From Helicobacteraceae bacterium (GTDB lineage: Bacteria; Campylobacterota; Campylobacteria; Campylobacterales; SZUA-545), in the NCBI GenBank assembly GCA_031268655.1, contig JAIRWX010000069.1:1-32478 (forward strand): a stretch of 32,478 nucleotides of DNA, given 5' to 3'. A program made the translations under genes and the position numbers. Below the pieces are notes generated by a model, which was given only the letters and a program-made list of their open reading frames with translations, was not told the DNA's origin and made no database searches. Shown in pieces: positions 4,559-30,655 of the stretch (position 1 is the stretch's first letter; every line of letters begins with the position of its first letter).

Positions 4559-4658
4559 TCGCGCCTCCCTTAAATGGGATTCTAGCCGCTGAATACTTTA
4601 AGTAATGGATTGGTTTTTGCTTGTTTGGGCGCTTTTTCGCCTACGCGATCGAATTATC

Positions 4659-4687
4659 ATATTATTCGCGCAACTTCATATAATCAA
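4659..4687 (-). promoter_or_regulatory. Candidate promoter of the S4-trpD-tsaE-lptB-rpoN operon
   Basis: On the complement TTGATT (4682-4687) and TAATAT (4659-4664) are separated by exactly 17 bases, about 100 bases before the S4 start codon. It lies in the AT-rich gap between the operon and the decayed HNH gene. The remaining 4559-4730 gap holds no convincing gene. Confidence 0.45.
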
Positions 4688-4730
4688 CGTCAAATTACAG
4701 CGGATACATATCCATCAATTACATTATAGC

Positions 4731-5595
4731 TTACGCGCCGCTTTTACGTCTGTTGTCCTCCTTGCACAACATTTGACAATTTCCAGCGACAGTTTTACCG
4801 CCCTTGCTCCACGGCGTGATGTGGTCGGCGCACCATAGCCGTTATACAACTTACCCCAATTCACGCCTTTCATTTCTTTGCGGTAATTCTTGAAAGTATG
4901 TTCCACCCATTCAATAACCGCCCTGAAATACAGCCGCAACTCTGATCGTGCTGGCGCTGGCTCATATACTCTTCAATCTTGCCACGGCTTAACCAGTCCA
5001 ACGCTCTTTCTAACTAGTCTTGTCGTATCGGACTACCAACCACATATTTTTCCGCCAAGCCTTTCGCTGGGGCGTTCGATTTTGAAAACTTCAACTTTGC
5101 GTCCGAAAGCCAAGGACCCGTATAAATTGCATTGCGAAGTTCTTGTGCAGTCAGTTTCTCGCCCGCAATGTTAATAATCTTAAACCAATCCAACTTTTCC
5201 TTGTCCGTGCCATCGCAAAAGTAGATTTGTAGCGGGTAGTTTAAGATTTGTTCTTGTTCCTCGCCCGTCAAATTATGAAAAGCGTAAGGATTGCCGTCAA
5301 ATTCCACCGAAAAATCGCCCTTGATATATTGGCAAAAAGAAATCGTGCGTTGTTGCCCGTCCATTACCTCGTAACCGCCGTCATCACGCGCCACCCAATA
5401 CATCACATTCAGCGGAAAACCCTTGCGAATAGTCCGCACCACCTCGTTGCGTTGCTCGTCCTTATAGACGAACTCCCGTTGATAGGCGGGGCGAATATCA
5501 AGTTTACCGCCATAACCTACTACGCCCGCTTCGGCGTTATCGATATAACCATTAACCACTTCGCGTACTGTTATCTGTTTTAGTTCAATTTTCAC
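4731..5595 (-). pseudogene. DUF262-HNH endonuclease-like gene, broken
   Basis: The 193-residue frame (5014-5595, GTG start) is an N-terminal DUF262 domain. It has the DGQQRT motif in YEVMDGQQRTISF, the preceding RPAYQREFVY, and FKIINIAGEKLTAQELRNA. It stops at an in-frame TAG at 5012-5014, yet the same frame continues with LERALDWLSRGKIEEYMSQ. The reading then shifts to RLYFRAVIEWVEHTF and [16 protein letters not shown], and shifts again to [19 protein letters not shown] ending [13 protein letters not shown]-stop at 4731. The last piece is an HNH-nuclease C-terminal half. The stretch that should carry the first zinc cysteines, between LYNGYG and ADH, is missing. So the gene has one stop, at least two frame changes and a deletion. 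It overlaps the preceding methyltransferase by the GTGA sequence, so the two were once one operon. DUF262 proteins include modification-dependent nucleases, which fits a defence role. Confidence 0.85.
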
Positions 5596-11843: not shown

Positions 11844-13217
11844 TTAACGTTCGTTCGCGGTCGTCTCCCGCTCGAGCGTGAGAGCTACGGCGACGCCGCC
11901 GCGCATCACCATAAAACTGCTAGGCTTGCCCGCGGCGACCGCCTCTTGCAACTGCGGCAGAGAATCTATCTCGCGTCCGTCGATCTGCACGATCACGTCT
12001 CCCGCCTCAAAGCCGCTTTTAGCCGCGAGACTAACCGCGTCCACGTCAAGCGTTACCACGCCGAGCGAGGTCTCCGCCATTCCCAGCCTCTCTCTCCATA
12101 GCGGCGTTAAGGTTTCAAAGGTGGCGCCTTCGTAATAGAGCGTTCGAGAAACGGTATTTCTGCCCGTCATTTCGAGCCTGCCCACGCGCAAAACCGCCTC
12201 GCGCAAGCGTCTGTCGCGCAAAAAGAGAAAAGTTATGTCTCGATCGGCGACGACGGCGGATAAAATCCGCTCAAAATCGGCTACGTTCGCTATCATCGCA
12301 TTGTCGGCAAGCAGAAGCAAATCGCCCTTTTTCAAACCTACGTCCGCCGCCGGCGAATGCGCTTCGACCGCCGTAATCACAACGCCGTCGTCTCTCCCGA
12401 AGTAACTTTTCATCTCCCGCGTGAGATCGGATACCGCCACACCTAACCAAGCGTCTTTTATATTGCCCGAACGCTCTATTCGCTCGGCGACGGCTTTAAC
12501 CCGTTCGATCGGCAGGAAAAATCCGCCTAGCGGCTCGCGCGATTGCGCGCCGAACGGATAGGTTGGCACGCCCGCGATCTCGCCGCGCGCGTTTACGATC
12601 ACGCCGCCAATGAAGCCGCCGTGAATACGCAGATCGCTCTGGATCAGACGATCGTCTTCCATCTGTCTGCCCAGCGCCGAAATCACGCCCATAGATACGA
12701 TCGGTTCGATGCCAAACGGATTGCCTATCGAAAAAACCAGATCGCCCGTCCGAATTGACGATATATCGGCAAAAACGGGTTCGGGCAGATTGTCGACAGC
12801 CACTTTCAACACCGCTATATCAAGAGATTGATCCGTACCTAACACTTTAGCGACAAGCGGTTCGGGGCGATCGGCGATCATCACTTTCAGCGTAGCGCGA
12901 TCTCGCGCGATCTTCGCGCTCGTTACGATCAGTCCGTCGCCTGAAATAATCGCGCCGCTTCCAAGCGACGCGCGCAATTTCTGAGCGCTAAGTTCAAGTT
13001 GAGGATATTGAAAATAGGGTCTAAACCACGGATCGTCGGCAAAGGGAGTTCCAACGCCCGTCTGATCGTCGTTCGCGCTCATAATATAGACCGCGTTTTT
13101 TGACGCGCGCTCCAACATCGAGGCGAAGGAGTCAAACAGCCGACCGCGCAGATCGACGTCTTCGGCGCTTAGGCAGACAACAAGCGGCGCAAACAACGCG
13201 CAAAATAAAAAACGCAT
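11844..13217 (-). CDS. HtrA/DegP-like periplasmic protein lacking catalytic His and Ser (pseudoprotease)
   Basis: The 457-residue protein has a signal peptide ([18 protein letters not shown]), a trypsin-like domain (~85-235) and two PDZ domains (~250-340 and ~365-450), the full DegP layout and length. The fold markers [24 protein letters not shown] and [20 protein letters not shown] are present. The catalytic residues are not: the His of VTNNHV is Lys102 in VTSAKIA, and the Ser of GNSGG is Ile203 in GGFIGG. Only Asp133 remains. It therefore cannot cleave by the usual mechanism and may act as a chaperone or PDZ scaffold. The reading frame is intact, so it is under selection and not simply decaying. 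Its ATG directly follows the stop of the GGDEF-EAL gene, so the two are cotranscribed. Confidence 0.88.
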
Positions 13218-14519
13218 CTACTCTCCGTTATAGATCAATCGGTGCGGCTTGCCAAAGAAAAATCCTTGCGAGTAATCCACGCCAAGATCGCGCACCTTTT
13301 CATATATCTCTTTCGTGGAAACGTATTCGGCGATCGTTTTCGCTCCGATGCTTTGCGCGAATTTAACCAGATTTCGCACGATCATCTCCGATCGTAAATC
13401 GCTTGTCAGATTGCAGATAAAGGCTTTGTCGATCTTGATAAAATCCAGATCGATGGCGAGCAGCCTCGCAAAATTTGAATGCTCCACGCCAAAATCGTCC
13501 GCCGCGATCAAAAATCCCATCTCTTTGAGCCTTGTAAGCTGACTGATATGCGAACCTATCGTCATACTTCGGACGCTCTCCACGATCTCGAGCGTAATCT
13601 GCGAAGCCGACAAGCCGTGTTTTTTAAGCCTAAAGGAGAGCATATCTTCTAAATAGCCCTCCTGGAAATCACTATCGGTTATATTGATAGAAAAATGAGA
13701 CTTTTTATTCTCAAAATACGCAAAAGACTGCATAATGATGGATTTCGTGATCGCGGTAAGAATGCCTGAAATCTCGGCGGCTTCCAAAAACAGATAGGGA
13801 TCGATTACCGCTCCGAACTCGTCGCGCATTCTGGCAAGACACTCGCAACGTTCCGCGACGCCGTTTACGTTATCGACGATCGGCTGATACCACGATTCGA
13901 TCGCCTCGTTTTCAATCGCCTGTCTGACTCGCGGAATCCAGTAGAGATTGCTTTTTTGTCGCTTGAAGGTATCCATTTCGGGCGTGTAAACCGCCAGTTG
14001 ATTTGGTCCCATAGCTTTCGCCTCTTGCAGCGCGATCATCGCGTAACCAAGCAGCAGATCGCTGCCTTCGCCGTAAGCTATGCCGATGGCGAATGCGATT
14101 CGGATCTCTATCTCTTCGTAAATAATGGCGCTTTGCGCGACAAACCCCAGAAGCTGCTTGGCGAACCGCTCGACCTGTTTTGGCTCTGGATTGTCGAACA
14201 GATAGACAAACTCGTCGCCCGCGAAACGATAGAGCGTCGCGTTGGACGGCAGATTGTAAAGCAAAATCGCCGCGACCTGACGAAGCGTGTAATCCGCTAC
14301 TTTTGTTCCGTAAACGGCGTTGATCGTTCCGAAACGGCTTAGATCCGCCACCAGCAACGCCTTCTGCCCAAACTTGTTCAGTTTTTCATTTAGCAGATGT
14401 TTATTGCGCAGTCCGGTCAACCGATCCGTTTCTCTCAGCCGCGCCGCCTCGCGGTCTTTCTGCGCCAGCTCCAGCCGCAGTCGCGCGATCTCCTCTTCAA
14501 GCGCGTCGTTACTCTGCAT
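13218..14519 (-). CDS. GGDEF-EAL domain protein (c-di-GMP signalling)
   Basis: The 433-residue cytosolic protein has a short coiled coil at the N terminus (EEEIARLRLELAQKDREAAR), a GGDEF domain (~30-165) and an EAL domain (~195-430). The cyclase signature is AGDEF in LYRFAGDEFVYLF, with the first Gly replaced but Asp-Glu kept. The EAL signature is ECL in CECLARM, which keeps the metal-binding Glu. Other EAL residues are present in INITDSD, LEIVES, AADDFG, FIKIDK and the Gln of YSQGFFFG. The usual DDFGTGYSS loop reads DDFGVEHSN. Phosphodiesterase activity is plausible; cyclase activity is uncertain. The start is ATGCAG at 14519, overlapping the stop of the small membrane gene by 11 bases. The ORF-track start 11 codons earlier lies inside that gene. 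Confidence 0.92.
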   Translation of the reverse strand: MQSNDALEEEIARLRLELAQKDREAARLRETDRLTGLRNKHLLNEKLNKFGQKALLVADLSRFGTINAVYGTKVADYTLRQVAAILLYNLPSNATLYRFAGDEFVYLFDNPEPKQVERFAKQLLGFVAQSAIIYEEIEIRIAFAIGIAYGEGSDLLLGYAMIALQEAKAMGPNQLAVYTPEMDTFKRQKSNLYWIPRVRQAIENEAIESWYQPIVDNVNGVAERCECLARMRDEFGAVIDPYLFLEAAEISGILTAITKSIIMQSFAYFENKKSHFSINITDSDFQEGYLEDMLSFRLKKHGLSASQITLEIVESVRSMTIGSHISQLTRLKEMGFLIAADDFGVEHSNFARLLAIDLDFIKIDKAFICNLTSDLRSEMIVRNLVKFAQSIGAKTIAEYVSTKEIYEKVRDLGVDYSQGFFFGKPHRLIYNGE

Positions 14520-14763
14520 AGGGATTTTCCAAAGCGATAATTTTAGATTCAATCTGTCGCTTCAAACGGCTGTTGCCGTCGCTTAACGCCTCCAGAGCGG
14601 TTTTGTTGCGCTCCAGCTTCAGGCTGATTACGTATATCTCGTTGGCTATATATATCTTTGGGGCGAAGATCGCAAGACCAAGCGTCATAGCGAGCGCGAC
14701 GGGCAAAATAAACTGATCGACGCCGCGAGGCGGCGCGAACTCGTCAAAATCGTCAAAGCGCAT
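14509..14763 (-). CDS. Small single-pass membrane protein with coiled coil
   Basis: The ORF track begins far upstream in the nth region. The better start is the ATG at 14763 (MRFDDFDEFAPPRGVDQFI) with AAGGAT upstream, giving 84 residues. A hydrophobic helix (ILPVALAMTLGLAIFAPKIYI, residues ~19-39) is followed by a charged coiled coil (ISLKLERNKTALEALSDGNS and RLKRQIESKIIALE). The topology resembles FtsL/FtsB-type or small anchor proteins, but I do not recognise a family. Its end overlaps the GGDEF-EAL gene by 11 bases, so the two proteins are probably made together, and it may tether that signalling protein or a partner to the membrane. That functional link is inference. Confidence 0.75.
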   Translation of the reverse strand: MRFDDFDEFAPPRGVDQFILPVALAMTLGLAIFAPKIYIANEIYVISLKLERNKTALEALSDGNSRLKRQIESKIIALENPYAE

Positions 14764-21143: not shown

Positions 21144-21827
21144 ATGGTGATTTTCGGCAGACAGCCCGTGCTTTACGCGATCGAGCGGCATGACGATATG
21201 ATCGAAACGCTTTTTGTCGCTAAAGAGCTGGACAAAAAACTCTTCGCCAGACTAAAAAGCGTGAAAAAGCCTATAGAGGTTTTGGACTTCAAAAAATCCC
21301 AAGCGATGGCTCGCGGACAGAATCATCAGGGAATGCTGGCTAAAATCAGACCGCTTTTGTTTCGCGAAAACGACGAGGCGTATAATTCGCGTTTCGCCGT
21401 GATGTGCGCGGGGATTACGGACGCGGGCAATTTGGGCGCGATTGCGCGCACCGTTTACGCGCTGGGCGTGGACGCGCTCGTCTTTAGCGGCGTTAAAAGC
21501 GTCAATTTGGAAACGTTAATCCGCGCAAGTAGCGGCGCGGCTCTATCTATGCCGCTTTTTTTGACGCCAAACACGCTTGAGGCGATCGAATGTTTTAGGC
21601 AGAAGGAATTTTTGACGATCGGCGCGGATCCAAAGGGCGAGGACGCGAGAGTTTTCAGGTGCGACGCGCAAAAAAGGCTTCTCGTGTTGGGCGCGGAGGA
21701 GCGCGGTTTGAGCGAGCGAACGCTCAAAAAGCTGGATCGCAAAATCGCGATTGCAATGGAGCGGGAGTTTGACTCGTTGAACGTTTCCGTCGCCGCGGCA
21801 ATTTTGATCGATAGGATAAGACGGTGA
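21144..21827 (+). CDS. rlmB: 23S rRNA 2'-O-ribose methyltransferase of the TrmH/SpoU family (RlmB-like)
   Basis: SpoU-family enzymes methylate ribose 2'-OH groups in rRNA or tRNA through a deep trefoil knot. The 227-residue protein has an N-terminal substrate-binding domain with the QNHQGMLA motif and the catalytic knot: DAGNLGAIARTVYALGVDAL (motif 1 with the catalytic Arg), LGAEERGLS (motif 2) and SLNVSVAAAIL (motif 3). The order after rsmI and the HQG segment favour RlmB (Gm2251 of 23S rRNA), though the exact site cannot be read from sequence. A TGCTACAAT extended -10 lies eight bases before the ATG, which would give an almost leaderless transcript in addition to read-through from rsmI. Confidence 0.88.
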   Translation: MVIFGRQPVLYAIERHDDMIETLFVAKELDKKLFARLKSVKKPIEVLDFKKSQAMARGQNHQGMLAKIRPLLFRENDEAYNSRFAVMCAGITDAGNLGAIARTVYALGVDALVFSGVKSVNLETLIRASSGAALSMPLFLTPNTLEAIECFRQKEFLTIGADPKGEDARVFRCDAQKRLLVLGAEERGLSERTLKKLDRKIAIAMEREFDSLNVSVAAAILIDRIRR

Positions 21828-22651
21828 GTGGATTCGAAACCTTAAAAACGATGGATCTTGGCGATATGTATCGCCAAACGCGCATTTCTGTAGCCGAGTT
21901 GAAAGCGTTGCTGGCAAAACGCTTTGAAAACTTCAACCGCGCCAAAGCGCTCGGTTTTTTCAAGATTTTAGAGCGGGAATACAATCTGGACCTGAGCGAT
22001 CTCGTCGCCGAATACGAGGCGTTTTACGGCGCGAAAAACGAAGACGAACAGATCTTTGTAGTCGCCAAAGAGGAGAAAAGCCGCGCCGGAAAATACCTGA
22101 TTGTCGTACTCGCGCTGATCGTGGTAGCGCTTGGCTGGACTTTTGCGCAACTAGGAGAGAACGCGCAAAGCCCGCAAAGCGCGCCGATCGCGCCGACACA
22201 ACCGATCGTTACGCCTACGCCGACGGTTGCGCCCTCCCCCAGCTCGCTGGTGGAGGCGGCGCGGCAGACGATCGCGGAGCCGCGGTCAGCCGAAACGTTA
22301 GCGCCAATCGTTATCGAGCCAACCGCGGAGGAGCAGAGCGTGGCAAGCGCGCCGATCGCGCAGTTTTACGTGCTGCCCGAAGGCGATCTGTGGATTCAGA
22401 TTACATACCTTGACACGGGGCAGCGCGAACAGAGGACAGTTTCGGCTCGCTACGATTTTGATCCTACAAGAGACGCGGATTTTCTTTTCGGACACGGACG
22501 ATTCAGGCTTACGTACGGCTCGGAGGTAGTCGAGCCGCAAACGAATCTGAGGCAGAGATTGCGCTTCAGCAACGGCGTTCTAGCCCGCGTTCCGGCTCCG
22601 CCGAGAAGCCGGCCGCAAGAGGCGGCCGAGGCGCAAAGCGAGGTAAACTGA
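21824..22651 (+). CDS. RodZ-like single-pass membrane protein
   Basis: The 275-residue protein has a cytoplasmic N-terminal helical domain (~1-85; VAELKALLAKRFENFNRAKA and LGFFKILEREYNLDLSDLV), a membrane helix (LIVVLALIVVALGWTFAQL, ~92-110), a Pro/Thr/Ala-rich periplasmic linker and a C-terminal beta-rich domain (~180-260). This is the layout of RodZ, which links MreB to the cell-wall elongation machinery, but the N-terminal domain is not a clear helix-turn-helix, so the name is by analogy. The GTG start overlaps the rlmB stop as GTGA. A membrane protein of this type occupies this position in C. jejuni as I recall (Cj0152c). Confidence 0.75.
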   Translation: MSGFETLKTMDLGDMYRQTRISVAELKALLAKRFENFNRAKALGFFKILEREYNLDLSDLVAEYEAFYGAKNEDEQIFVVAKEEKSRAGKYLIVVLALIVVALGWTFAQLGENAQSPQSAPIAPTQPIVTPTPTVAPSPSSLVEAARQTIAEPRSAETLAPIVIEPTAEEQSVASAPIAQFYVLPEGDLWIQITYLDTGQREQRTVSARYDFDPTRDADFLFGHGRFRLTYGSEVVEPQTNLRQRLRFSNGVLARVPAPPRSRPQEAAEAQSEVN

Positions 22652-22656
22652 AATAT

Positions 22657-23514
22657 ATGCGTAAACTACTCATACTCTTATCTCTGGTCGGCGCGTTATC
22701 TGGCGACGCTATTAACGACAAGGTGCGCGCGCTGGTCGATCCGCAAAGCTACGTTACGCATCAGAGACTAATAGAGATCATATTCAAAAATAAAAAAGAG
22801 TTTTTAGCCGAGCCGGATCGCGCCGACAGCGTTAAGGTAGCCGCGACGCTTAAGGACAACGGATTGCTGGACATATTCTACAGAGACGGACCCCGCAACC
22901 TAAGCGCCACCTTCCGCTCTGCGAAAAGCCCGATGTTTTTTCTGAAAGCGGCGAGCGACAGCCTAAGCGATCTGGGCTACAACTTCACGCGCATAAGCGC
23001 GATGCGATCGGACTCGCTCTTTTTTGAGTGGACGATCAGTTACCGCAGCGATCACGCGATCGACCCCGCGCAGCTATCCAAAAGACTCGCCGCGTTTCGC
23101 GTAAAGATTGACGATATTTCCAAACAGGGAGACGATTGGCGCTACTCTCTGACGGCGAAAAATCCGAGCCTGCCCGAAGCGATCGCGCTGGAATCTAAGC
23201 ACACGACGGAAGAGCCGCTTTCGGCGCAGAATATGTCGGGCGAATACTGGATCAAACTGCCGCCGTATTCCAAGTCGAGTCGAATCGGTATTCGCAAAAA
23301 AACCGGCGGCTCGTGGGTGGTTTACGCGGTGTTTTACGACGACGCTTTGCAGCCGATTCAAACCGCCGTTTCCGCAAACGCGGTCAGAGCGTTTATTTCG
23401 CCCTTTCCGGAGAACGCGGCGTATATGAAAATCACCGACAACGACATAGCCGTTACGCTCCAACACGGCTTGCAATTTTGGTTTGAGGTCGTCGGAACTC
23501 AGACGCAAAGATAG
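22657..23514 (+). CDS. Conserved periplasmic protein of unknown function
   Basis: The 285-residue protein begins with a signal peptide (MRKLLILLSLVGALSGDA). The mature part is mixed alpha-beta with no catalytic motif I recognise. It includes LTAKNPSLPEAIALES, then a segment (EYWIKLPPYSKSSRIGIRKK) that may be a beta-sandwich. It starts five bases after the RodZ-like gene and ends five bases before the aminotransferase gene, so the three are cotranscribed. The pairing with the upstream membrane protein is, to my memory, conserved in Campylobacterota (Cj0151c-Cj0152c), which hints that they act together in the cell envelope. The function is unknown. Confidence 0.75.
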   Translation: MRKLLILLSLVGALSGDAINDKVRALVDPQSYVTHQRLIEIIFKNKKEFLAEPDRADSVKVAATLKDNGLLDIFYRDGPRNLSATFRSAKSPMFFLKAASDSLSDLGYNFTRISAMRSDSLFFEWTISYRSDHAIDPAQLSKRLAAFRVKIDDISKQGDDWRYSLTAKNPSLPEAIALESKHTTEEPLSAQNMSGEYWIKLPPYSKSSRIGIRKKTGGSWVVYAVFYDDALQPIQTAVSANAVRAFISPFPENAAYMKITDNDIAVTLQHGLQFWFEVVGTQTQR

Positions 23515-26747: not shown

Positions 26748-29048
26748 ATGAGAACTTACGCAGTCAAATACGAATCGCAACGGCAGATCGAGGATTTGGC
26801 GGAGAAAAACGGTTTGCGCCTAGCGCCTAATTTGCTGGCTACCGTTTTTTGCGCGACGCCAAACGCTCTTTTTGCAATCGGGCAGACGCTAGAGACGTTG
26901 TTGCCAAAGGCTTCCATAGCGGGGCTTAACGTTTGCTTGGCGCTATGCGACGACGATTTTTACGACAACGAAACCACGATTGTATTTACCGATTTTGAAA
27001 ACGTGAAACCAATTGTGTTTTCCTTTAACGAAGCGAGCGAAGCCAACGCCAAGAAGGCGATTTTGGAGTTGAAAGCGTCAAACGCGAATAACGCGCTGGT
27101 GTTTTGCTCGCAAAGCCAATGCGAATTCAAACCGTTTTTGCGATCGCTGGGCAAGAGGCTAGATACGATCGTTTGCGTAAATTCTATCGCCGCCTCGCTG
27201 ATACGCGACGGCGTCCAAAGCCACGGCGGCGCGATCGTCGTCGCCTTCGACGGCGCCGACTTTGCGTTCAGAATCAAAAAGAGCGTCGCGCCCATTGCGA
27301 TGGGCAAAGAGTTAACGATCACAAAAATTGACAAAAACCGCATTTTGGAACTTGATCGCAAGCGCGTCGAGGAGGTTACAAAATTTTATCTCGGCGCTAA
27401 TCCGCAATCCGACGCTTTCGCCTATCTTAAAGCCGCCGATAACCGCATAGCCGCCAAGATCAACGGCTCGCTCTTCATGAATTGCGAGGAGGGCGAAGCC
27501 TTGCGACTTGGGATACTGCCAAAAACCGCGTTTGATTACGGCGGATACGAGGAGCTAACGCGCGACAGGGCGCTGTGGCAGTTTTCGACGCGCAGCTTTA
27601 AGCGGGTTCGGGCTTCCGGTTGCGTCGCCGAGAGCGTTTTTTTGGCGCGAGAGTCGTTATTGGAACAAGTTGACGAGCTTTTGATATGGAGCGACGAAAC
27701 GGAGGACGAGTTCAAGGCGATGCGCGAGACTTTCGCCAATAACTTTGCGCGCGAAGAAGACTCTATGATCCGTCTGTTGAGCGGTTTAAGCGAAGATCTA
27801 GTCGAGCAGACTCGACAAAACGCGCTAAAGTTCTCGTCACAAAACTTAACGGCTTCGGCGCGCAGAGATTCGCTTACAGGTCTGCCCGGGCGCGACAGCT
27901 TTATCGAGGCGCTTTCGATGGCGAAAAGTCCGTCGGCGGCTATTTTTAATATTGAACGTTTTCGGGACATAAACGATCTATACGGCTACGACGCGGGCAA
28001 TCATATTATCAAAGAGCTTGCCGCGCTGCTTGTCGCCTCGCTTGGCGAAAATGTGCCGCTGTTTAGGATTGGGGGCGATCTGTTCGCCGTTTTAGCCGAT
28101 GGTTACGCCGAGGAACGATTCTTATGTAAAATCAATTCGGCGCAATCGATCGTAGGCGCGACGATCTTTTTAGAAGAGACGCTTGCCGCGTCCAATATCC
28201 GTCTGCGAGCGGGCGTGGCGTATGGTATCAAACAGACGCTCTCGCGCGCCGAGGACGCTTTGAGAAGCGCCAAGCGCAAGCGAACGTCGATCGTGATCGC
28301 GCCCGACGGCGACAATAACACAGCGCAAGAGAATCTTAAAATGCTCAACGTGGTTAGACAGGCGGCAATGCAGCCGTGGTGGACGCTAGCCAATTATCAG
28401 CCGATCGCGAGGGTAAGCGACGGGCAAATCGTAAAATACGAGGCGTTAATGCGATTACGAGACGCCAACGGACGCATCTATCAACCCGCCGCGTTTTTGG
28501 AACTCGCCAAACGATCGCGTTACTATCAGGAATTGACCAAACATATCTTTACCGGCGCGCTTAAACTTTTCAAAGACAGGCGCGAAGCCGTCGCGATCAA
28601 CCTAGCGCCGGAGGATATCCAAAATAATGAAACAATGTCCTATATAGGTTCGCTGATCGCCGAATTTGGCGAGCCGGAACGCATAACGTTGGAGGTAACC
28701 GAATCGGAAATGATCGAGGACTACGAAACGACTATCGAGGCGATTAGCAAAATGAAAAAATGGGGCGCGGCGATCGCCATCGACGATTTCGGAAGCGGGT
28801 ACAGCAATTTTGCTTACCTGATCAAATTTCAAGCCGACTACATCAAGATCGACGGCTCTATAGTGCGCGAGGTCGACAAAAACGAGAAGGCGTATCAGAC
28901 CATGGCGGCGATTGTGGATTTTGCCAAGCGGCTCGGACTGGAGACGATAGCGGAGTTTATCTCAAGCGAATCGATCGCGCAAAAAGCAAAAGAGGCGGGC
29001 GTGGACTATTGGCAGGGATACTATATCGGACAGCCCGCGCCGCTATAA
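26748..29048 (+). CDS. FIST-GGDEF-EAL signalling protein, cyclase motif degenerate
   Basis: The 766-residue soluble protein has an N-terminal sensory region (~1-290) that resembles FIST_N plus FIST_C, domains proposed to bind small ligands such as amino acids. A helical linker (~300-365), a GGDEF domain (~370-520) and an EAL domain (~535-760) follow. The cyclase signature is RIGGDLFAVLA, with Leu replacing the catalytic Glu, so cyclase activity is unlikely and the domain may instead bind GTP or be structural. The EAL domain looks complete: YEALMRL, INLAPED, LEVTESEM, IDDFGSGYSNF, YIKIDGS and YWQGYYIG. It should hydrolyse c-di-GMP under control of the FIST ligand. The FIST assignment is by general resemblance and is less sure than the other domains. 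Confidence 0.85.
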   Translation: MRTYAVKYESQRQIEDLAEKNGLRLAPNLLATVFCATPNALFAIGQTLETLLPKASIAGLNVCLALCDDDFYDNETTIVFTDFENVKPIVFSFNEASEANAKKAILELKASNANNALVFCSQSQCEFKPFLRSLGKRLDTIVCVNSIAASLIRDGVQSHGGAIVVAFDGADFAFRIKKSVAPIAMGKELTITKIDKNRILELDRKRVEEVTKFYLGANPQSDAFAYLKAADNRIAAKINGSLFMNCEEGEALRLGILPKTAFDYGGYEELTRDRALWQFSTRSFKRVRASGCVAESVFLARESLLEQVDELLIWSDETEDEFKAMRETFANNFAREEDSMIRLLSGLSEDLVEQTRQNALKFSSQNLTASARRDSLTGLPGRDSFIEALSMAKSPSAAIFNIERFRDINDLYGYDAGNHIIKELAALLVASLGENVPLFRIGGDLFAVLADGYAEERFLCKINSAQSIVGATIFLEETLAASNIRLRAGVAYGIKQTLSRAEDALRSAKRKRTSIVIAPDGDNNTAQENLKMLNVVRQAAMQPWWTLANYQPIARVSDGQIVKYEALMRLRDANGRIYQPAAFLELAKRSRYYQELTKHIFTGALKLFKDRREAVAINLAPEDIQNNETMSYIGSLIAEFGEPERITLEVTESEMIEDYETTIEAISKMKKWGAAIAIDDFGSGYSNFAYLIKFQADYIKIDGSIVREVDKNEKAYQTMAAIVDFAKRLGLETIAEFISSESIAQKAKEAGVDYWQGYYIGQPAPL

Positions 29049-29806: not shown

Positions 29807-30655
29807 TTAGCCGGTGGCAAGGGCTCCATTAAGGCAATCCGCAAGGGCACAGCCCATAAAAACCAGTTCCGGCTTTCCATATACCTTCTTTTGCTTATAT
29901 TCCAGGGCCGGATACAACTCTTTGATCCGCCTGACAAATATATTACGGGTTTCAGCCTTCCAAGTGTTCATATGATCCTGGTAAAGCCGGTATAAATCCC
30001 GGACCAGGACATAATCATCGGGGTTTCCGGTTATTTTCAGAGCCATTTTGGCAAAATTGTATATGGTGGGGTTCGCCTTTTTATGGGTTTCGGCGTATTC
30101 CATAAAATCATCATGGGTTTTGAATGACAAGGCACCCTTAATGGGGTTATCCGGTACATCCGGGGTATCAAAATTGAAGGCTAGGCGGCGGAATTCCCGG
30201 ACGGATATACGCCCTTCGTTAAGAATCATCCGTAATTCATGGATTCGGACAGTAGATGGTTCTTTCCAGGCTTCCTGTCCCAGCAGGGTATAGGTCCCGG
30301 TCTTGCGGATTGAAGGTATAACCTCCCCAGCTATCCATTTTTGGAAGGGCAAGGCGGCATCCTTATCGGACCGGGCCAGGAAGAAGTAAAGGCCCGGCTC
30401 TGATAGGCAAAGCATACTTTGGCTTTTTCTTGCCCTGGATGAGGGGTGAATCGGATTCACCTCAGATATAGGGGTCGGTATCGGATACCGACCCTTCCAT
30501 TCATCGGGAACATGGGCAAAAAGCCGGGCCGGATTGCTTGTCTTGGGATACCCCAAAACCCCGGCCACGTCCTTTCCTACCCACCAGGGTTCTCCATCCT
30601 TTATCACGGTACGAACTTCCCGGCCTTCATAGGTGAAATTTACCAGATCATTCAT
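29807..30655 (-). CDS. BRO-N antirepressor-like phage protein
   Basis: The 282-residue protein begins with a BRO-N domain (~1-115). It has VNFTYEGREVRTVIKDGEPW, then VGKDVAGVLGY, LCLSEPGLYFFLARS and FQKWIAGEVIPSIRKTGTY, the typical signature of phage antirepressors. The C-terminal region (~205-265), with VRDLYRLYQDHMNTWKAETR and NIFVRRIKELYP, resembles the winged-helix tail found after phage primases. A strong AGGAGG lies five bases before the ATG. It is transcribed together with the XRE repressor gene, which ends 51 bases upstream. Antirepressors usually inactivate or compete with the lysogeny repressor, which fits this neighbour. Confidence 0.9.
   Translation of the reverse strand: MNDLVNFTYEGREVRTVIKDGEPWWVGKDVAGVLGYPKTSNPARLFAHVPDEWKGRYPIPTPISEVNPIHPSSRARKSQSMLCLSEPGLYFFLARSDKDAALPFQKWIAGEVIPSIRKTGTYTLLGQEAWKEPSTVRIHELRMILNEGRISVREFRRLAFNFDTPDVPDNPIKGALSFKTHDDFMEYAETHKKANPTIYNFAKMALKITGNPDDYVLVRDLYRLYQDHMNTWKAETRNIFVRRIKELYPALEYKQKKVYGKPELVFMGCALADCLNGALATG

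Follow-up and report, generated by a model that had tools for sequence, protein, structure and literature searches.

The pHtrA locus

The window (the whole stretch of DNA analysed, 32,478 nucleotides from a Helicobacteraceae bacterium) carries on its minus strand an uninterrupted reading frame with an ATG start that encodes an HtrA-derived protein, here called pHtrA (Table 1). Pfam places a Trypsin_2 domain at residues 86-217 (1.7e-21) and PDZ domains at 258-341 and 391-434, an order that assigns the protein to the HtrA/DegP (Do) fold and architecture family. The top NCBIfam model is TIGR02037 degP_htrA_DO (242.5 bits, E 7.9e-72), and the score falls short of the curated cut-off of 416 bits. 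In a phmmer search of PDB chains the leading matches are periplasmic DegP-like proteases, and HtrA from both H. pylori and C. jejuni ranks near the top. An AlphaFold2 model built on an alignment of 49 sequences has a mean pLDDT of 84; its pTM of 0.57 is what one would expect of PDZ domains whose placement against the core varies. The best PDB structures, DegQ, DegP and H. pylori HtrA, match it along about 440 columns. These results uphold the initial annotation, which described a full-length HtrA/DegP homologue with protease fold, both PDZ domains and a clean frame. The signal peptide that it proposed is also probable, as the N-terminus resembles a Sec signal peptide by eye.

Table 1. Features of the pHtrA gene and its neighbours in the window
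Feature	Position	Strand	Basis or remark
HtrA-derived pseudoprotease gene (pHtrA), 457 aa	11844..13217	-	ORF; Trypsin_2 and two PDZ; 9 full-length orthologues
Probable Sec signal peptide, residues about 1-18	13164..13217	-	hydrophobic N-terminus, by eye; AF2 helix 2-25; no lipobox
LA-loop region, residues 44-85, clade-specific D-x-WF[RK]PY	12963..13088	-	alignment
Trypsin-fold (Trypsin_2) domain, residues 86-217	12567..12962	-	Pfam
Codon AAG, Lys102, catalytic His position	12912..12914	-	alignments
Codon GAT, Asp133, catalytic Asp retained	12819..12821	-	alignments
Shortened loop L3, residues 180-195, 16 residues	12633..12680	-	20 residues in all 30 HtrA1 compared
Codon ATT, Ile203, catalytic Ser position	12609..12611	-	alignments; invariant in clade
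PDZ1, carboxylate-binding loop AWLGV kept	12195..12446	-	Pfam; loop comparison
PDZ2	11916..12047	-	Pfam
GGDEF-EAL gene, motifs RFAGDEF and ECL	13218..14519	-	Pfam; stop codon abuts pHtrA ATG
84-aa single-pass membrane and coiled-coil protein, FtsL-like	14509..14763	-	overlaps EAL start by 11 nt

Elsewhere in the window, positions 26748-29045 encode a second c-di-GMP protein with FIST, GGDEF and EAL domains, and positions 29810-30655 encode a Bro-N domain protein, of a kind often carried by phages, in this bacterial contig. Two consecutive ORFs at 21824-23511 (275 and 285 aa) have no Pfam match and lie between an rRNA methylase and an aminotransferase gene.

Loss of the catalytic residues

Alignment with solved HtrAs and relatives places Lys102 (context VTSAKIA) at the His of TNNHV, Asp133 (LDIAVL) at the catalytic Asp and Ile203 (IHGGFIGG) at the Ser of GNSGG, leaving the His-Asp-Ser triad incomplete. 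Both substitutions read by the initial annotation, His to Lys and GNSGG to GFIGG, are therefore genuine features of the alignment. The family was sampled with 15 genomes, the source genome (G000) being an assembly of 1.63 Mb in 76 contigs that is 90% complete. Nine full-length pHtrA orthologues were found in these genomes; they belong to three genera, and their identity falls as low as 48%. A further copy, in G002, is a fragment lying at the edge of a contig. Ile203 is found in all nine, encoded by ATT, ATC or ATA, and such uniformity argues that this residue is not there by chance. Position 102 is nearly fixed as Lys (four orthologues) or Arg (four), the exception being the His of G010, and Asp133 is replaced by Gly in two (G004 and G011). 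The presence in G010 of the His without the Ser suggests that the Ser was lost before the His; alternatively, this His may be a reversion, CGC to CAC being a single step.

The gene is under purifying selection. The closest pair of orthologues, G003 and G005, gives a dN/dS of 0.026/0.201 = 0.13 and the pair G000-G001 gives 0.203/0.814 = 0.25, dS being saturated at larger distances; ratios of this size in the closest pairs indicate that pHtrA is maintained. Sequencing error or a pseudogene is ruled out by the nine orthologues together with this selection. It is scarcely credible that the protein still cuts by some unusual mechanism or that its gene is decaying: His102 is kept in G010 and Asp133 in most orthologues, but Ile203 cannot serve as a nucleophile in any of them, and the frames are intact with dN/dS well below 1.

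The source genome encodes exactly two Trypsin_2 proteins, according to searches of its contigs, namely pHtrA and one intact HtrA (L002, hereafter HtrA1) with the motifs TNNHV and GNSGG. A second, catalytically complete htrA is thus present, an active paralogue of the kind that the initial annotation had envisaged. Nearly every genome of the family has both proteins; in G005, whose assembly is incomplete, pHtrA alone is seen. Several features of an HtrA pseudoprotease are found here, namely descent from HtrA, absence of the nucleophile in every orthologue, purifying selection and an active paralogue in the genome, and pHtrA is almost certainly a real, conserved pseudoprotease. The non-proteolytic role first suggested for it is likewise probable in the light of the fixed Ile203, the selection on the gene and the complete second HtrA; pHtrA very probably acts by binding proteins and not by cleaving them.

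Distribution of pHtrA

The pHtrA clade is confined to one family of the Campylobacterales. A scan of 84,980 species, one genome per species, with two short alignment-derived patterns that can miss relatives found the dead motif only in the pHtrA family. The scan may omit the records closest to that of the window; it names seven carriers: Campylobacterota bacterium MS502-29, the MAG CSSed11_302, whose name suggests sediment, and five MAGs labelled Helicobacteraceae. The other aligned matches of the scan keep the catalytic His together with Ser, or in one case, from Nitrospirota, have Thr at the Ser position. This Nitrospirota HtrA-like protein (L185, 4614-5855) reads GNTGG, and a related Nitrospirota sequence (L183) keeps the Ser and has Asn at the Asp position. 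No pHtrA was found among the viruses searched. Campylobacterales MAGs have been reported in a termite-gut study (PMC9137090); from this study and the isolate names, in records whose titles name no host, we infer that the labelled MAGs, and with them most of the carriers, come from termite guts.

Remodelled loops and a retained ligand-binding site

Changes specific to the pHtrA clade cluster at the active site and the LA loop. Compared with 30 active HtrA1 proteins, the fixed switches are N44Y, F64W, F68Y, N100S, N101A, P200G and S203I. Loop L3 comprises 14-17 residues in the clade, 20 in 30/30 HtrA1 and 19 in HtrA2, a further paralogue of the family described below. In HtrA proteases the activating signal passes through loops such as L3 to loop L1 of the active site and to the oxyanion hole (reviewed in PMC11642142), and the shortening of L3 would therefore fit a protein that has no need of being switched on. 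The PDZ1 loop, on the other hand, reads AWLG[IV] in eight of nine orthologues and AWIGI in G013, and the AWLGV of pHtrA is the same as in the active paralogue of its own genome. Since this loop is kept while the dead site, the LA region and L3 are altered, the binding module seems to have been kept by selection and the cutting module given up.

Comparison with known HtrA proteins

pHtrA resembles DegP, DegQ and HtrA, including the H. pylori and C. jejuni proteins, in its signal peptide, trypsin fold, two PDZ domains, whole-chain fold and PDZ1 carboxylate loop. It differs from them in lacking the catalytic Ser and His, in its shorter L3 and remodelled LA loop and in scoring below the TIGR02037 cut-off. 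The protease-dead S197A mutant of C. jejuni HtrA retains chaperone activity and most of the host-cell-binding effect (PMC3260087) and forms large oligomers (PMC11642142). Like pHtrA it is a full-length protein of the same phylum in which the nucleophile is absent; however, it is engineered and carries a single substitution, whereas pHtrA is natural and has many active-site and loop changes.

The nearest natural parallel is MamO, also an HtrA/Deg-derived pseudoprotease found alongside an active paralogue. The catalytic Ser of MamO is replaced by Thr while its His and Asp remain; MamO also binds metal and possesses a TauE-like membrane domain (PMC4794232). In contrast, pHtrA has Ile and Lys/Arg at the catalytic positions, two PDZ domains and no TauE-like domain; the NCBIfam model of MamO gives it 34.9 bits against a cut-off of 800, and DegP-type models are far stronger. 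HtrA pseudoproteases arose independently in three magnetotactic taxa (PMC4794232). The opinion that bacterial HtrA pseudoproteases are rarely described thus holds as to their rarity, yet MamO and these taxa were already known. Among 5.39 million open papers searched in full text, 12 bring HtrA and pseudoproteases together, and judged by title and abstract the MamO paper is the single one of these that deals with such a protein in bacteria; natural cases beyond the magnetotactic bacteria have hardly been described. pHtrA is therefore a new lineage of a kind already known.

MamO also supplies the precedent for two other readings of pHtrA. The main rival, itself unlikely, is that pHtrA regulates HtrA1, mixed oligomers or competition for ligands tuning proteolysis as MamO does for MamE. 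The coexistence of the two paralogues in nearly all genomes of the clade, the HtrA-type core and the similar PDZ1 loop agree with such a role, and MamO is required for MamE-dependent proteolysis (PMC4794232). However, activation by MamO depended on a C-terminal transporter domain that pHtrA does not have, and no contact between MamE and MamO was detected (PMC4794232); moreover, the LA loop, which forms the trimer-trimer contact in DegP, is strongly changed in pHtrA, and the incomplete G005 assembly shows pHtrA alone. It is very improbable that pHtrA instead uses its remodelled active-site cleft to bind a newly gained ligand, for example a metal, as MamO does (PMC4794232). His199, which adjoins the dead site, is present in 7/9 orthologues, but it is Gly in G003 and G005, and no conserved metal-ligand cluster was found in the orthologue alignment.

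Origin and related copies in the family

Related copies occur in other genera of the family: a second HtrA paralogue, HtrA2, in G008 and G012, and one eroded copy in G007. HtrA2 shares several residues with pHtrA, His199 among them; unlike pHtrA it has an intact His-Asp-Ser triad (HPxTSGG), the longer L3 and the locus p83-HtrA2-kdsA. In the phylogenetic tree the pHtrA clade has a support of 100/100, and its stem measures about 1.9 changes per site. It joins HtrA2 as sister at 92/84, a node for which the program warns of possible long-branch attraction. The AU test speaks against placing pHtrA with the family's HtrA1 (p 0.03). pHtrA and HtrA2 have six residues in common against HtrA1, where pairs of HtrA1 sequences have at most two and pairs of outgroup sequences at most five. 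Taken together, the tree and these residues make common descent of pHtrA and HtrA2 likely.

The eroded gene in G007 lies in the order rsmH-ftsL-p83-PDZ gene-kdsA. Its protein has no Pfam trypsin match; the N-terminal part alone matches an HtrA profile in hhalign with P 1e-4 and a probability of 56%, and the structure model matches DegP over its full length, the input alignment already containing HtrAs. The model and the profile match suggest a second, independent loss. The p83 gene (MSSGVSTLIKEVPLATKEGGVISISHV...; L061 in G007, 4587-4835; homologues L110-L139) encodes a protein of 80-90 aa that occurs in 116/150 Campylobacterales genomes; it has no Pfam match and was not found in the pHtrA genomes searched.

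An HtrA-like gene at the FtsL-like locus throughout the order was considered and rejected: a search of 150 genomes of the order with the G007 protein returned, outside the family, mainly HtrA of ordinary length and a few weak PDZ matches. The p83 and ftsL-like loci elsewhere in the order have other neighbours. Other families have shorter HtrAs (323-410 aa); these matched weakly, had no rsmH, ftsL, p83 or kdsA found nearby and were set aside.

Gene neighbourhood

The small membrane protein noted by the initial annotation is an FtsL-like protein common to the Campylobacterales, with homologues in 141/150 genomes. It has one transmembrane segment followed by a coiled coil (by eye), and rsmH lies directly upstream of its gene in 30/30 loci of the order that were read as well as in G010, G013 and G007; in the window nth takes this place. 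The Pfam FtsL profile does not match the window gene, and NCBIfam FtsL matches stay below cut-off (E 0.0012 in one relative, the best, and 0.015 in G010). Position, topology and these weak profile matches make FtsL its likely identity.

The 11-nucleotide overlap of the FtsL-like gene with the EAL gene and the EAL stop codon abutting the pHtrA start make translational coupling of pHtrA to the EAL gene likely in the window. A scan of the window for promoters and terminators found sites no more numerous than in shuffled sequences, so the evidence for the proposed cotranscription of pHtrA with the GGDEF-EAL and membrane protein genes is gene overlap and strand. The gene order is rsmH-ftsL-EAL-pHtrA in G010 and G013, ftsL-EAL-pHtrA in the window and G001, ftsL-EAL remnant-pHtrA in G006 and ftsL-pHtrA without EAL in G003 and G005; in G004 and G011 pHtrA lies away from ftsL, beside purC and murC. 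Three close relatives retain pHtrA although their EAL gene is missing or degenerate, so the EAL gene is optional and no obligate partner. In G006 (L052, 1597-2088) the EAL gene has shrunk to a remnant of 164 codons between the ftsL-like gene and an intact pHtrA. In the window protein RFAGDEF and ECL replace GGDEF and EAL, as in the three full-length relatives, and no membrane segment is evident.

The FtsL-like gene is upstream on the same strand in 7/9 full-length pHtrA loci, preceded by rsmH in G010 and G013; with the overlapping genes in the window and the related G007 locus, this arrangement would suit a pHtrA devoted to the FtsL-like protein or the divisome, serving the product of the adjacent gene in the periplasm as PDZ adaptor or as protector. 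Such a partnership is nevertheless distinctly unlikely. pHtrA lies elsewhere in G004 and G011, and the FtsL assignment itself comes from position, topology and weak profile matches. Moreover, nearly every genome of the order encodes the FtsL-like protein, yet an HtrA-like gene at its locus was found in one family only, which implies that FtsL does not need one. The wider proposal that HtrA was duplicated into the rsmH-ftsL neighbourhood in this one family and made into a non-catalytic PDZ protein at least two times, in the pHtrA clade and separately in G007, as a dedicated adaptor between periplasmic quality control and division, is quite doubtful.

Proposed role and significance

The reading preferred here, with somewhat better than even confidence, is that pHtrA is a periplasmic pseudoprotease that arose by duplication of DegP/HtrA, gave up Ser-His catalysis together with some of the activation machinery and was kept by selection as a protein-binding module. 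After the duplication and these losses in one copy, the product would be exported to the periplasm and would assemble through the trypsin-fold core, as HtrAs do. Its PDZ domains and blind substrate cleft may then capture C-termini or unfolded segments of envelope proteins, pHtrA acting as a holdase or scaffold without cutting and leaving that task to HtrA1. This non-cleaving mechanism, for which C. jejuni HtrA S197A offers an analogy, has about an even chance of being correct. Given the strong divergence seen in the long stem of the clade, the function could also be unlike that of HtrA.

The pHtrA clade amounts to a natural experiment in which HtrA's roles in binding and as a chaperone are separated from proteolysis. 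Its relatives form a graded set, running from intact HtrA1 and intact HtrA2 through a protein with the His and without the Ser (G010) and proteins without Ser and His to copies without all three residues and a protease domain that is almost unrecognisable (G007). With this graded set the purpose of a protease-dead HtrA becomes directly testable.
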